From: Bittarella massiliensis (ex Durand et al. 2017)
GTDB taxonomy: Bacteria; Bacillota; Clostridia; Oscillospirales; Ruminococcaceae
Length of the DNA: 64,000 nt
Assembly (NCBI RefSeq): GCF_001486165.1
Contig: NZ_LN908975.1
Location: 1-64,000 of the forward strand
Direction: 5' to 3'
Of the stretch, positions 46,140 through 55,243 are shown piece by piece. Made by a program: the position numbers and the translations under genes. Positions within the stretch are counted from its first letter, which is position 1. Every line of letters begins with the position of its first letter. The notes under the pieces are model-generated. The model saw only the letters and a list, made by a program, of their open reading frames with translations, ran no database searches and had not been told where the DNA came from.

Positions 46140-47236
46140 AAGTCCTCTCTCTCTCGGCCGAGGGGTACCGCAACCTCGCCTCCGTCTCCCTCTGTCCCGA
46201 CGAGGGGGTCAACGTCATCTGCGGCGACAACGCCCAGGGCAAGACCAACCTGGTCGAAGCGATTTGGAACTTCACCGGCGCCAAGAGCTTTCGCCCCTCT
46301 AAAGAGCGGGACTATGTCAAAAAGGGGGAACGGGTCGCCACCCTCTCCCTGTCCTTCTCGGCGCAGGGGCGGGAGCAGAGCGCCAAGCTCCGCTACGGCG
46401 AGCGGCGGGAGATCCTTCTCAACGGGGTGAGCAAGGCCTCCCCGGCCGAACTGGCCGGCAGCTTTTGCTGCGTGGTCTTCTCCCCCGCCCACCTCTCCAT
46501 CGTCAAAGAGGGCCCGTCGGTCCGCCGCCGCTTTTTGGACGGGGCCATCTGCCAGGTGCGGCCCCGCTACATCCATGTGCTCTACCAGTACAAAAAGGCC
46601 CTCTCGCAGAAAAACGCCGTCCTCAAAGAACTCTACAAAAACGGGGCCGCCTACGACCTGCTGGACGTCTTTGACGACTCCATCGCCGTCTGGGGTGCGC
46701 AGGTATGGCGCACCAGGGTGCGCTATCTCAACAAGTTGGGGCAGAACGCCTGCTCCATCTACGGGGGCCTCTCCTCTCGGCGGGAGGAGTTGACAGTCGG
46801 CTACAAGAGCTTTCTCTCCCTCTCCCCCGACACCCCCCTCCCCCAGGTACAGGCCGCCTACCGGGAGGCGCTGCGCGCCGCCCGCACCGACGACACCGGC
46901 GCCGGGTTTTCGACTCTGGGGGTCCACCGGGACGACTTCTCTTTGCAGATCGACGGCCTCGACGCCAAGGTCTACGGCTCCCAGGGACAGCAGAGGAGCG
47001 CGGCCCTGGCCCTCAAGCTGGCCGAAGGGTACCTGCTCAAAGAGGTCTCGGGGGAGACGCCGGTGATGCTTTTGGACGACGTGATGAGCGAACTGGACCA
47101 GGGCCGGCAGAGCTATGTCCTCAACCATCTGGAGGGGGCGCAGGTCTTCATCACCTGCTGCGACGCCGGCCACTTTGAGGGCCTTCTGTCCGGCAGGGTC
47201 TTTCGGATGGAGCGGGGCGCCCTGTCCCCCGCCTAA
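46136..47236 (+). CDS. recF: DNA replication and repair protein RecF
   Basis: A 366-residue SMC-like ATPase: Walker A GDNAQGKT at 30-37, signature YGSQGQQRSAALALKLAE, Walker B VMLLDDVMSELD. The GTG start overlaps the S4 stop codon (GTGA). Loads RecA at gaps with RecO and RecR. Confidence 0.97.
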   Translation: MKVLSLSAEGYRNLASVSLCPDEGVNVICGDNAQGKTNLVEAIWNFTGAKSFRPSKERDYVKKGERVATLSLSFSAQGREQSAKLRYGERREILLNGVSKASPAELAGSFCCVVFSPAHLSIVKEGPSVRRRFLDGAICQVRPRYIHVLYQYKKALSQKNAVLKELYKNGAAYDLLDVFDDSIAVWGAQVWRTRVRYLNKLGQNACSIYGGLSSRREELTVGYKSFLSLSPDTPLPQVQAAYREALRAARTDDTGAGFSTLGVHRDDFSLQIDGLDAKVYGSQGQQRSAALALKLAEGYLLKEVSGETPVMLLDDVMSELDQGRQSYVLNHLEGAQVFITCCDAGHFEGLLSGRVFRMERGALSPA

Positions 47237-47263
47237 ACGCCACTAGGAAAGAGAGAGCGATCT

Positions 47264-49527
<2,264 letters not shown>

Positions 49528-49555
49528 CCGGCCGCATGGCAACAGGAGAGCACCT

Positions 49556-50209
49556 ATGAACGAATACCCCCAAGTCACCTATATCAACAACCAGGACGAC
49601 TGGTATGAATTTCTCCTCTTTGAACAGTACTGGTCCTGTCTGGATGACCGCAAGAATGCCGCCAACGTGCTGATGAAGTGCCTGATCGCCGATTTGCTGT
49701 TCACCCTCTTCTTCGTCTTTGCCCCCTTCATCGACAAGGCCTACATCTGGTTGACCCTAGCCTTTGCGGCGGTCTTTGTGCTGCGCTTTTTCTACGAGTA
49801 TCACAGCGGCTACATCGCCGACTACCGCAACATGACAAACCTCTACCTCAACTTGAAAAAGAGCAACATCGTCAACATCTACGACGACAAGATCTCCCTC
49901 TCCTTTGGGGAGAGCGAGGTCAACCTCGCCGCAGACAACTACCGGCGCTTCTTCGAGTACGAGGACATCGCCTACATCCAGGAGACGTCGAACCTGATCA
50001 TCATCCGCATCAAGGAGAACACCAACAAGCCCAACCTGCGGCAGTTTCAGCGCGTCATCATCTCCAAGCGCTACATCTTCCCCGACAAGGTCGAAAAGCT
50101 GCGCGCTTTTTTAGGCGAAAAGATCGAGGAGTACCACATCCCCAAACTCCTCACAGAGGAGGAGCTGGAAGGCCTTCATCTGGCCACCGAGGACCGTTCG
50201 GCCCGCTAA
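49556..50209 (+). CDS. YcxB-like membrane protein, first of three
   Basis: A 217-residue protein with two membrane segments (about 43-61 and 64-84), then a beta-rich soluble domain (about 95-195; NIVNIYDDKISLSFGESEVNL, YEDIAYIQETSNLIIIRI). The architecture, a short cytoplasmic head, two helices, then a PH-like domain, matches YcxB-like proteins. ACAGGAG precedes the ATG. Lies 28 bases after gyrB. Confidence 0.7.
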   Translation: MNEYPQVTYINNQDDWYEFLLFEQYWSCLDDRKNAANVLMKCLIADLLFTLFFVFAPFIDKAYIWLTLAFAAVFVLRFFYEYHSGYIADYRNMTNLYLNLKKSNIVNIYDDKISLSFGESEVNLAADNYRRFFEYEDIAYIQETSNLIIIRIKENTNKPNLRQFQRVIISKRYIFPDKVEKLRAFLGEKIEEYHIPKLLTEEELEGLHLATEDRSAR

Positions 50210-50225
50210 AAAAGGAGTGTTTTCC

Positions 50226-50882
50226 ATGAGCAAGGGATCCCCTATTCTCAAAGTCACCTTTCAGATGGATTTTAATGACTTTTACAACTTCAACATGCAC
50301 GTCTCCAAAGAGATGATCGACAAGAGCAAGAAGAAGGTCACCATCTTCGGCGCGGTGGAAATCGTGATGGCCGTGGTCTTTTTGGTGCTCAACTTCACCA
50401 GCCAGTCCAACTCCTCCCTCAACCTGGTGCTGGCGGTGGCCCTGCTGTGCATGGGGCTGTTCTCGGTCCTCTTTTACCCCGCCTTCTTTGAGCGGCAGCT
50501 CTCCAAGGCGGTGAAAAAGACCTTTGATCAAAACGAGTACTTTCACAACGACGTCACCCTGGAGTTTTTGGAGGACAAGATTTTCGAGACCTCCTGTGTG
50601 GGCACCGGCAGCGTTGCCTACAAGGACCTGCAAAAGGTCTACCGCCTGGGGGACTGCCTGATTTTGCGGATGAGCAAAGAGGGCGGCTATGTGCTGCCCC
50701 TAAAGGCCATCGGCGAGGAGAAGATCGAGCAGATCGAAGAGCTGGTGCGCCGGAAGATGGACGAGGCCGAGCTGGAAGAGGCGGAGGAGCTGGACCGCGA
50801 GGCCGACGAGCTGGCCGCCCAGGAAGAAGAGGGGGCCGAGGGATCCGGTGACCCCCTTTCTGAAAGGAACGGCGAGCAATGA
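50226..50882 (+). CDS. YcxB-like membrane protein, second of three
   Basis: A 218-residue protein with the same plan: QMDFNDFYNFNMH head, two hydrophobic segments (about 40-60 and 66-85), and a domain with NDVTLEFLEDKIFET and VAYKDLQKVYRLGDCLILRMS. It ends in a strongly acidic helix (EAELEEAEELDREADELAAQ). The ATG at 50226 has AAAGGAG eight bases upstream. Its stop region overlaps the next gene by four bases. Confidence 0.72.
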   Translation: MSKGSPILKVTFQMDFNDFYNFNMHVSKEMIDKSKKKVTIFGAVEIVMAVVFLVLNFTSQSNSSLNLVLAVALLCMGLFSVLFYPAFFERQLSKAVKKTFDQNEYFHNDVTLEFLEDKIFETSCVGTGSVAYKDLQKVYRLGDCLILRMSKEGGYVLPLKAIGEEKIEQIEELVRRKMDEAELEEAEELDREADELAAQEEEGAEGSGDPLSERNGEQ

Positions 50883-51559
50883 AATTTCCCCTGCAACTGC
50901 AGTACGAACTCACCCTGGACGACACCCGCAAGGTGTTCGACCTGGTCTACGGCAAGAAGGAGAAGCGGGGAAACATCATCCGCACCGTCTTCTTTTCGGT
51001 GATGGCCCTCATCTTTTTTTGCAGCATGATCTACGCCCTGGGCCAGTCGGCGGTGGCGGTGCACACCCTGGAAAACGGCACCGTCTCCCCCTATATCGAC
51101 TACTCCCACCTGGACTTCTCCAAGGTCAACTGGCAGATGGTGGGGATGTCCGCCCTGTTGATGGTCATCTGTATCCTGATGGCGGTCTTCTACAACATCT
51201 ACACCCGCCGCCGGCTGGAGAGCATTGTCAGGGACCGGCACGAGGCCATGCACGGGGGGATCGTCGTCCTGGGGCGGGAGAGCTTTCTCTTTCGCAGCGA
51301 CGACGGCAGGATCGAGGTCAACAAGGAGTACAAAAACCTCTACGAGGCCTATGAGGACGCCGACTTTTTCGCCCTCATCACCGGCGACCAGACCTGTGTC
51401 CCCATCCCCAAATCCAAGATGGAGACCGAACAGTTTGCCGAGCTCTCGAAGATCCTCTCCATCGACCTGAAGGAGTACTTCTTCAAAAACGGATACATGA
51501 ACACCGAGGTGGAGATGAAGACCATCTTCGGCGACTTTACGAGGCGGAAACTCAAGTAA
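50879..51559 (+). CDS. YcxB-like membrane protein, third of three
   Basis: A 226-residue protein, again with a short head (LQYELTLDDTRKVFDLVYG), two membrane segments (about 36-56 and 85-105) and a soluble C-terminal domain (GGIVVLGRESFLFRSDDGRIEV, YEAYEDADFFALIT). It overlaps the preceding gene (ATGA) and AAAGGAAC precedes it. Sequence identity to the other two is low; the relation is by architecture and position. Confidence 0.7.
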   Translation: MKFPLQLQYELTLDDTRKVFDLVYGKKEKRGNIIRTVFFSVMALIFFCSMIYALGQSAVAVHTLENGTVSPYIDYSHLDFSKVNWQMVGMSALLMVICILMAVFYNIYTRRRLESIVRDRHEAMHGGIVVLGRESFLFRSDDGRIEVNKEYKNLYEAYEDADFFALITGDQTCVPIPKSKMETEQFAELSKILSIDLKEYFFKNGYMNTEVEMKTIFGDFTRRKLK

Positions 51560-51619
51560 CAGGCCCTCAAGTTCCCCCGCCCACACCCGAAAACCCCAAT
51601 GAGGAGGCAAGAAACCATT

Positions 51620-54157
<2,538 letters not shown>

Positions 54158-54171
54158 CAGTTGTGAAAGAG

Positions 54172-54209
54172 AAAGAGGGAGCAGCCCGCAAGCTGTTCCC
54201 TCTTTTTTT
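54172..54209 (+). terminator. terminator of gyrA
   Basis: AGAGGGAGCAG ... CTGTTCCCTCT with one bulge, followed by a run of seven T, 15 bases after the stop codon. Confidence 0.85.
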
Positions 54210-54244
54210 GTTCATTCGATCAAAAGGCGACCGACCCTGCGGGG

Positions 54245-55243
54245 CTAGAGGGATCGCCTCTTTGCAAACTCCGCCAGGGCGTTTTGCAGCAGCAGCTCCA
54301 GCATCTGTGGATAGCTGTACCCCGCCCACTCAAAGCAGAGGGCGGTGCTGCCGTCGGCTCCCATGTAGCAGTCGGGAGAGAGCTCGATGAGCTTGAACCC
54401 GTCGGGGCCGATGCGGCCGTCCACCCGCATCACATCCACCTTGCCCAGGGCCTTAAAAAGGCGGGCGAACCGTTCCCTCATCTGCTCGGTGAGCAGATGG
54501 GTCCCCCGCACCATCTCCACCTTCCCCTGCTCCCCCTTCTTGGGCTCACAGCTGTAGATCTCGTGGGCTTGGTAGTCCTTTCCGTTTAAAATCAACAGGT
54601 CGGCCTCCAACACGTCGATGCGCTCCGGGGTGCCGGCGATGCTGGCGCAGATCTCCCGCCCCTCGATGTACTCCTCCACCAAAATGGGCTGCTGAAAGTG
54701 GGCGAGCAGCTCTCTGGCCAGCCGTTTGGCCCCCTCGTGGCTGTCCGTCAAACTCCGCCGGGTGATGCCGTTGGACCCCCCTTCGGCGTTGGGTTTGACC
54801 ACCAGCGGGCAGCGCAGGTCGTCGATTTGGGGCAGTTGGTCGGGCCCCTCCACCAACACCTCGCGGGCGCTGTCGATGCCGTACTTCCGGCAGAGCTGTT
54901 TGGTCAGGCTCTTGTCCTCGGTCAGCAGCTGCACATAGGGGTCGGCCCCCACATAGGGGATGCCGTAGGCCTCGCAGATGGAGCCCACATATCCCCGCCG
55001 ATTGCGGGAGCGCCGCCCCGACCAGACCGTAAAGACGATGTCGTCCTGGTGTTCGCGGATGTGCTCCATCAACTGGGCCGGATGGCTGTAGTGGACCACC
55101 GCGGGCGCCACCTCCCGCAGCCCGCCGTAGAGGGATTCAAAATACCCCTCGCTCACACACTCCAAATTGTCGCTGAACTGGGTCACCTCCCCGTAGGACT
55201 GCACCCGATCCGCCAGCAACACCACTCTTCTGTCCAATGGCAT
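54245..55243 (-). CDS. ATP-grasp ligase related to D-alanine--D-alanine ligase
   Basis: A 332-residue ATP-grasp enzyme. Visible motifs: VVKPNAEGGSNGI (phosphate loop), LVEEYIEGREI, and MRVDGRIGPDGFKLIELSPDC at the Mg-binding end. In true Ddl the last motif is E-x-N-T-x-P-G; here it is ELSPDC, with the metal-binding Asn missing and the DG pair changed. So it may join other amino or hydroxy acids. GGAGGAG precedes the ATG. It is divergent from an Asp/Glu racemase gene. Confidence 0.75.
   Translation of the reverse strand: MPLDRRVVLLADRVQSYGEVTQFSDNLECVSEGYFESLYGGLREVAPAVVHYSHPAQLMEHIREHQDDIVFTVWSGRRSRNRRGYVGSICEAYGIPYVGADPYVQLLTEDKSLTKQLCRKYGIDSAREVLVEGPDQLPQIDDLRCPLVVKPNAEGGSNGITRRSLTDSHEGAKRLARELLAHFQQPILVEEYIEGREICASIAGTPERIDVLEADLLILNGKDYQAHEIYSCEPKKGEQGKVEMVRGTHLLTEQMRERFARLFKALGKVDVMRVDGRIGPDGFKLIELSPDCYMGADGSTALCFEWAGYSYPQMLELLLQNALAEFAKRRSL

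Follow-up and report, generated by a model that had tools for sequence, protein, structure and literature searches.

Gyrase operons in 91 of 129 sampled genomes of one bacterial family carry, between gyrB and gyrA, genes for YcxB-like membrane proteins, and it is this carriage of a protein family by the operon, rather than any three-gene array as such, that is the unusual part of the locus. The best-supported account of the three genes found in Bittarella massiliensis is that a gene for one YcxB-like membrane protein settled between gyrB and gyrA in a distant ancestor of this lineage and that its copies have since diverged. They lie in what is here called the window, the whole stretch of 64,000 nucleotides that was analysed. 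Their locus is defined, old and testable, a gyrase operon with membrane proteins of its own in many genera, and the genera that carry the insert include cultured species such as Caproiciproducens galactitolivorans.

In the window, the block dnaA-dnaN-S4(yaaA)-recF-RemB-like-gyrB-gyrA has a single interruption. The S4 protein, RecF, GyrB and GyrA pass their Pfam cut-offs, and the RemB-like protein reaches 21.1 bits against a cut-off of 26; the two genes that we take to be dnaA and dnaN were recognised from their translations. The interrupted segment reads as follows.

47599..49527, + strand: gyrB, the upstream partner in the likely operon (Pfam DNA_gyraseB, 201 bits, with Toprim and HATPase_c)
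49556..50209, + strand: gene 1, ORF for a predicted membrane protein of 217 aa, a relative of the YcxB-like family (PF14317, 14.6 bits)
50226..50882, + strand: gene 2, ORF for a predicted YcxB-like membrane protein of 218 aa (PF14317, 33.9 bits)
50879..51559, + strand: gene 3, ORF for a predicted YcxB-like membrane protein of 226 aa (PF14317, 29.0 bits)
51620..54157, + strand: gyrA, the downstream partner (Pfam DNA_topoisoIV, 544 bits; start read as 51620, with another in-frame ATG at 51599)

An earlier, sequence-only reading of this DNA had described three same-strand genes of about 220 codons between gyrB and gyrA, the last two sharing a four-base overlap, and had seen neither promoter nor terminator there. 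Each of these points is borne out: the genes have 217, 218 and 226 codons on the + strand, the start of gene 3 and the stop of gene 2 share the letters ATGA at 50879-50882, and a consensus scan of 47000-54500, which is weak evidence of its kind, detected no + strand promoter-like or terminator-like site between the genes. What that scan did return was a single promoter-like site, on the - strand, and, on the + strand, an overlapping pair of terminator-like sites within gene 1 and a third within gyrA. The spacings are 28 bases from gyrB to gene 1, 16 from gene 1 to gene 2, -4 from gene 2 to gene 3 and 60 from gene 3 to gyrA, and a purine-rich stretch resembling a ribosome site stands ahead of the start of each inserted gene. 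Just past gyrA, and convergent with it, the window encodes a D-Ala-D-Ala ligase-like ATP-grasp protein (54245-55243, - strand, 44.1 bits).

The same reading had called all three proteins YcxB-like. For genes 2 and 3 the name holds, their C-terminal domains exceeding the gathering cut-off of the Pfam YcxB family (PF14317) at 33.9 and 29.0 bits against 23.3; gene 1, at 14.6 bits, falls below that cut-off, and its likeness to the family stands on profile homology. Profiles grown from gene 1, 2 or 3 alone converged on the same 115 ORFs in 91 genomes, among the 99 gyrB-gyrA intervals, and this homology, together with the same modelled fold, indicates that gene 1 is a relative of the YcxB family rather than a member. 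Because the profile search was iterative and confined to a small set (the ORFs of those 99 intervals), an independent check against PF14317 was added, in which 76 of the 115 members matched at E <= 0.01. Family hits in the fetched intervals fall on 119 of 211 ORFs of the gyr strand and on none of 204 antisense ORFs; since the profile was made from sense ORFs, only the antisense zero is informative among these counts. NCBIfam gave nothing over its cut-offs for the inserted proteins, and a sequence search for solved relatives gave seven matches at E <= 1, none of them convincing (best 0.3; three are designed membrane proteins). The members have a median length of 208 aa, and some reach 359-580 aa (at loci L068, L069, L079, L087, L097, L110, L120 and L124); ten long members were scanned, and in them no second Pfam domain rose over its cut-off, while the long member of L124 contains two YcxB stretches. 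A YcxB protein of Clostridium thermocellum is termed uncharacterised in the available part of one report (PMC8112048).

The distribution of the insert was established by seeking GyrA and GyrB in 148 genomes of the host's family, the window's genome included. Matches were obtained in 147 and 146 of these; weak ones were left out, and the best matches from 142 and 139 genomes were used. For twelve of the 142, no partner turned up on that contig and strand, and one genome (G103), with its partner 15.7 kb off, was not scored; in the remaining 129 genomes gyrB and gyrA are near neighbours on a single contig and in the same orientation. The gap is shorter than 250 bases in 30 of them, where the insert is absent and the two genes are adjacent, and larger in 99, all of which were fetched; YcxB-like relatives occupy 91 of these 99, as one copy in 73 genomes, two in 12 and three in 6. 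Two genomes were scored in each of 22 genera, and they agree in 21 (13 with the insert in both, 8 in neither). The sequence-only reading had named sporadic presence, without conservation of the triplet, as a finding that would count against it: presence proves to be kept, whereas the exact triplet is uncommon (6 of 91).

The possibility that this interval is a hot spot for any gene was rejected as the main account, given that a single family holds nearly all of the larger intervals (91 of 99) and that gyr-linked and other YcxB proteins mix little on a tree. Exceptions to be set beside that rejection are the pairs of lipoprotein-like ORFs in L089, L091 and L098, and the methyltransferase or restriction genes that adjoin a YcxB-like member in L094 and L095. 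Eight larger intervals are without a recognised member (L001, L002, L003, L024, L075, L089, L091 and L098). In those of L002 and L024 there is an ORF, roughly 170 aa long, that shares the two-helix arrangement, those of L001, L003 and L075 yielded nothing convincing, and in L089, L091 and L098 (genomes G146, G068 and G012) the lipoprotein-like ORFs replace the YcxB-like genes; two of these ORFs were scanned and gave no Pfam match. At L095:949-2740 (G021), the YcxB-like gene and gyrA are separated by genes for an ApaLI-like restriction endonuclease and a DNA methylase.

Outside the host's family, members at the gyr locus were found in none of 60 loci drawn over the class (52 families, two of the loci being of the same order), in which gyrB was found in 40 and the gap was below 170 bases in 38. 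Forty loci from other families of the order included two with members, namely three in G285 (family f77) and one in G284 (family f76), with gyrB found in 32. The class and order samples covered mostly one or two genomes per family, in stretches that were mostly 2.7 kb long and in a few cases ended by contig ends, and gyrB was not found in 20 of 60 and 8 of 40, respectively. Among 80 named gyrA loci, 46 could be scored; members were present in 21, ten of these having three, and the triplets belong to L100, to strains BS-1 and YR-4 of Caproiciproducens galactitolivorans, to Clostridium sp. D33t1, to Anaeromassilibacillus senegalensis and to five assemblies from uncultured bacteria. The scored Agathobaculum and Papillibacter loci contained no members, and one genome was probably counted in both the named and the order sets (as L114 and as G285).

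The inserted genes sit tightly within the operon, at median distances of 26 bases downstream of gyrB and 36 bases upstream of gyrA in the 91 genomes, with a spacing between members of 50 bases or less in 20 of 24 cases. The earlier proposal that they are transcribed together with gyrase is therefore likely to be correct, judging from strand and spacing. In 16 of the 91 genomes the first member starts at least 150 bases past gyrB, so that a promoter of its own is possible there.

The history of the family was examined with a tree of 154 gyr-linked proteins. Among seven triplets in that tree (both C. galactitolivorans strains, UBA5408, D33t1, A. senegalensis, L107 and L179), the first, second and third genes group separately, with support of 100, 99 and 87, which indicates that the triplet and its order are old in that lineage; the first-gene and third-gene groups also take in genes from loci with fewer copies, and the triplets of L110 and L121 fall outside this register. 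The window's genes 1, 2 and 3 pair with genes 1, 2 and 3 of genome G132 (support 99, 99 and 100), and its triplet would thus predate those two genera. A mixed tree combined 142 gyr-linked proteins (12 of the 154 rows were omitted for their long branches) with 42 other YcxB proteins, found by the Pfam profile in 70 chosen genomes. At least 4 changes of place are required on this tree, as against 37.9 in shuffles, none of 500 of which was as low; the starred branches force at least one such change, and the deep forks are weak. Thirty of the 42 other proteins fall together and 12 fall among the gyr-linked ones, the rows nearest to gene 3 including one of the 42, and the gyr-linked proteins thus appear mostly separate. 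As the simplest account, these trees suggest that the family came in once or a few times long ago and was afterwards passed on vertically, with duplications and losses; the element of old vertical inheritance is very probably right. Relocation of the gene in genomes without the insert is not demonstrated by the finding that 17 of those 30 have a YcxB match elsewhere and 13 have none. The window's own genome (G000) contains a fourth YcxB match, of 26.6 bits, at C7:83700-83882, about 20 kb past the window's end and away from gyrase, and two genomes without a gyr insert carry YcxB-like pairs close together elsewhere (L281 in G045; L295/L303 in G022).

Selection upon the three genes was measured against gyrase itself. 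The closest named record, L100 (Bittarella massiliensis), encodes a GyrA 98% identical to that of the window and has the same three genes, for which dN/dS is 0.031, 0.089 and 0.071 at dS 0.34-0.50, with 0.035 for GyrA and 0.013 for GyrB; the low ratios indicate that genes 1-3 are real, and the overall dS of 0.20-0.50 makes the window a relative of the L100 strain, not a copy of it. In the C. galactitolivorans pair the values for genes 1-3 are 0.181, 0.195 and 0.174 (GyrA 0.049), and they are 0.080, 0.097 and 0.095 between L114 and L176, where the GyrA comparison (46% identity) was not used because it looks misaligned. Against the more distant G132 they rise to 0.341, 0.454 and 0.705 at dS 0.8-1.1. 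By these ratios the genes are kept and are drifting faster than gyrase, except for Bittarella gene 1, which is about as slow as gyrA.

The genes might be passengers that perform a generic, partly redundant membrane function, and that persist only because their place is well expressed and is seldom vacated by an exact deletion, bound mechanistically neither to gyrase nor to any one client. Such an account would fit their fast divergence (a single alignment column reaches 90% across the 115 members), the YcxB genes elsewhere in genomes without the insert and in the window's own genome, the 30 genomes that do without it, and the inclusion of the Bacillus subtilis ycxB-sipU region among those deleted as non-essential, as stated in the accessible portion of that study (PMC4893254). 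It is rendered somewhat unlikely by the dN/dS of 0.03-0.2 in close pairs, by the retention of order among in-place duplicates in the Caproiciproducens group, and by the agreement of genus pairs on presence. Protection of the membrane, or of a membrane enzyme, against envelope attack, for instance by antimicrobial peptides, would explain divergence and copy-number change, in keeping with a conserved layout under low sequence conservation and with one to three copies per genome; this is highly unlikely in view of the strong purifying selection in close pairs, the single copy in most genomes, and a search among the scanned interval proteins in which no toxin or bacteriocin gene was recognised.

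The fold of the inserted proteins was addressed with AlphaFold2 models of gene 2 (44 relatives, mean pLDDT 90.9) and gene 1 (38 relatives, mean pLDDT 81.9). Both models comprise a strand, two long helices, further strands and a C-terminal helix, the hairpin helices of gene 1 spanning residues 13-54 and 61-100. The parts of gene 2 are as follows.

50247..50264, + strand: modelled strand ahead of the hairpin, residues 8-13, read tentatively as PH strand 1
50271..50531, + strand: modelled two-helix hairpin, residues 16-57 and 63-102, in agreement with the K+R pattern of the family
50550..50843, + strand: modelled rest of the PH strands plus the C-terminal helix, residues 109-206, with the acidic stretch at the end of that helix

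The earlier description of a short head, two helices and a beta-rich C-terminal domain is thus upheld for the models of genes 1 and 2. These were also compared with solved structures using VIA-align 2, and PH-like domains were matched at Z up to 10.9 for gene 2 (94 residues, rmsd 2.1) and up to 8.5 for gene 1 (82 residues, rmsd 2.4; just 7 chains at Z 8 or more), so that the suggestion of a PH-like domain is well founded for both. In each predicted model the strands are closed by a C-terminal helix and match solved PH domains. Structures without a shared PH-like domain, which the sequence-only reading had also named as counting against it, were thus not what the modelling of these two genes gave. 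Foldseek against the PDB gave no match at E <= 0.001, its best being 3.2e-3, with PTB, FERM and PH folds leading. The alignments of gene 2 to PH domains cover 82-105 residues, start at model residues 1-8, before the membrane helices, and end at residue 176 or later, which suggests a single PH fold into which a membrane hairpin is apparently inserted after strand 1, as read from the alignment ends. The anatomy given for genes 1 and 2 is highly probable.

Two clear hydrophobic stretches near the N-terminus are present in 102 of the 115 members. The 15 residues ahead of the stretches contain 4.1 lysines and arginines on average, the loop 0.9 and the 15 residues that follow 3.5, a pattern that fits both ends inside in 98 of the 102 scored members and that would turn the PH part towards the cytosol. 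The net charge of that part is +1, -5 and -5 for genes 1-3, with a median of -2 over 127 proteins, values which do not suggest general binding to acidic lipids. The sequence-only reading had further proposed that an acidic C-terminal helix in gene 2 might contact a basic partner. As a conserved docking site that helix was rejected: the orthologue in G132 ends without it, the tails of the 115 members are slightly basic on average, and a net acidity of at least 14 in the last 40 residues is found in 3 of them.

In each protein, most likely, both termini lie inside the cell and a hairpin of two helices sits in the membrane, and the strand that precedes the hairpin would join those that follow it in a single PH-fold domain at the inner face. 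Made, presumably, from the gyrase transcript, such proteins may act as membrane adaptors, in which the PH fold holds a peptide or a partner protein while the hairpins pair with each other or with a membrane enzyme, much as the actinobacterial protein CofA pairs with PBP1a and stabilises it. On that model the operon near the origin would supply dose and timing, and gyrase would not be the partner. Adaptors with a partner other than gyrase are the tentative preference, by analogy and at somewhat less than even chances, and a role apart from gyrase is favoured, with the same reserve, by the 30 genomes in which gyrB and gyrA are adjacent without the insert, by CofA, and by a CofA-family gene of Mobiluncus porci. 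Several observations weigh the other way: a position kept so steadily from genus to genus might just as well reflect a link with gyrase, the rise of dN/dS against G132 fits weak constraint, and the tree, whose deep forks are weak, puts 12 of the 42 YcxB proteins from elsewhere in among the gyr-linked set. A client sought by co-occurrence in 65 genomes (the 30 without the insert, and 35 with it that were hand-picked from the 91 rather than drawn) gave no signal for GT51 transglycosylase or Spo0A; the former occurs in 64 of 65 and is missing in one genome with the insert, and the latter occurs in 61 and is missing in 3 of the 30 without and 1 of the 35 with the insert.

A further alternative is a tether for gyrase or the origin: by binding gyrase, or some other protein encoded in the dnaA-gyrA block, the PH domains in the cytosol would keep supercoiling activity or the origin at the membrane, with the copies forming a mixed assembly whose dose follows gyrase. 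This alternative is unlikely. Its appeal lies in a linkage that is specific, old and tight, in the near-exclusive occupation of larger gyrB-gyrA intervals by one family, in the gyr-linked proteins having mostly their own part of the tree, and in the predicted cytosolic position of the PH domain. It is opposed by the absence of the insert from 30 of 129 family genomes and by its not being seen in 60 class loci, which indicates that gyrase works without it, by the lack of conservation of the acidic helix, and by CofA, which, from the portion of its report available (PMC7205459), shows that adjacency to gyrase can be uninformative. That a lineage of Clostridia evolved a membrane-anchored gyrase partner, in the form of PH-fold proteins from the gyrase transcript and with up to three per operon, is quite improbable; if true, such a partner would hold gyrase or the origin at the membrane and couple DNA supercoiling to the envelope. 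Adaptors serving a partner other than gyrase remain the reading tentatively preferred here.

Several known systems invite comparison. A search of the open-licence literature found no description of a YcxB-like gyrB-gyrA locus. As described in the accessible part of one paper (PMC7561548), Caldalkalibacillus thermarum has a seemingly strain-unique insert of 4.7 kb between gyrB and gyrA, which likewise places extra genes there, but these are for magnesium and molybdate import, together with cysL. Within PF14317 itself, genes 2 and 3 are members, while the gyr-linked proteins occupy mostly their own part of the tree. Bacterial PH domains (PHb), comprising DUF1696, DUF304, DUF1200 and DUF2244, were described by Xu et al. 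in 2010 (PMC2817789), where the term YcxB is absent from the text; in the sections available, for several PHb families the protein is predicted to lie in the membrane and the domain in the cytosol, two N-terminal membrane helices are given for DUF2244, and the membrane families are suggested to be without strand 1. The modelled genes 1 and 2 resemble PHb in showing the PH fold, and differ from those membrane families, as excerpted, in that the strand before the hairpin appears to supply strand 1. The models therefore raise the prospect that membrane PH proteins thought to be without strand 1 could be complete, with the strand lying ahead of the hairpin.

The closest likeness is to CofA, which belongs to DUF3566 and has two membrane segments. 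According to the available portion of its description (PMC7205459), its gene commonly lies immediately downstream of DNA gyrase in Actinobacteria; the protein interacts both with copies of itself and with the membrane segment of the cell-wall synthase PBP1a, and PBP1a requires it in order to be stable. In Mobiluncus porci, a gene for such a DUF3566 (CofA-family) membrane protein lies after gyrA (L174:7114-8127, E 1e-29). The inserted proteins share with CofA the two membrane segments and a gene kept beside gyrase; unlike them, CofA has a gene after gyrA rather than between gyrB and gyrA, a known partner in PBP1a and, in that portion, no PH domain described. Genes 1-3 gave no match to DUF3566 (PF12089) at E <= 1 and stand outside that family, and CofA is therefore an analogy only. 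Since CofA sits by gyrase and yet serves a cell-wall synthase, as that source has it, place alone does not name the partner. Taken with CofA, the locus suggests that unrelated lineages have kept small membrane proteins beside gyrase, and it prompts one to ask whether this location serves just for gene dose close to the origin or connects DNA topology with the envelope.
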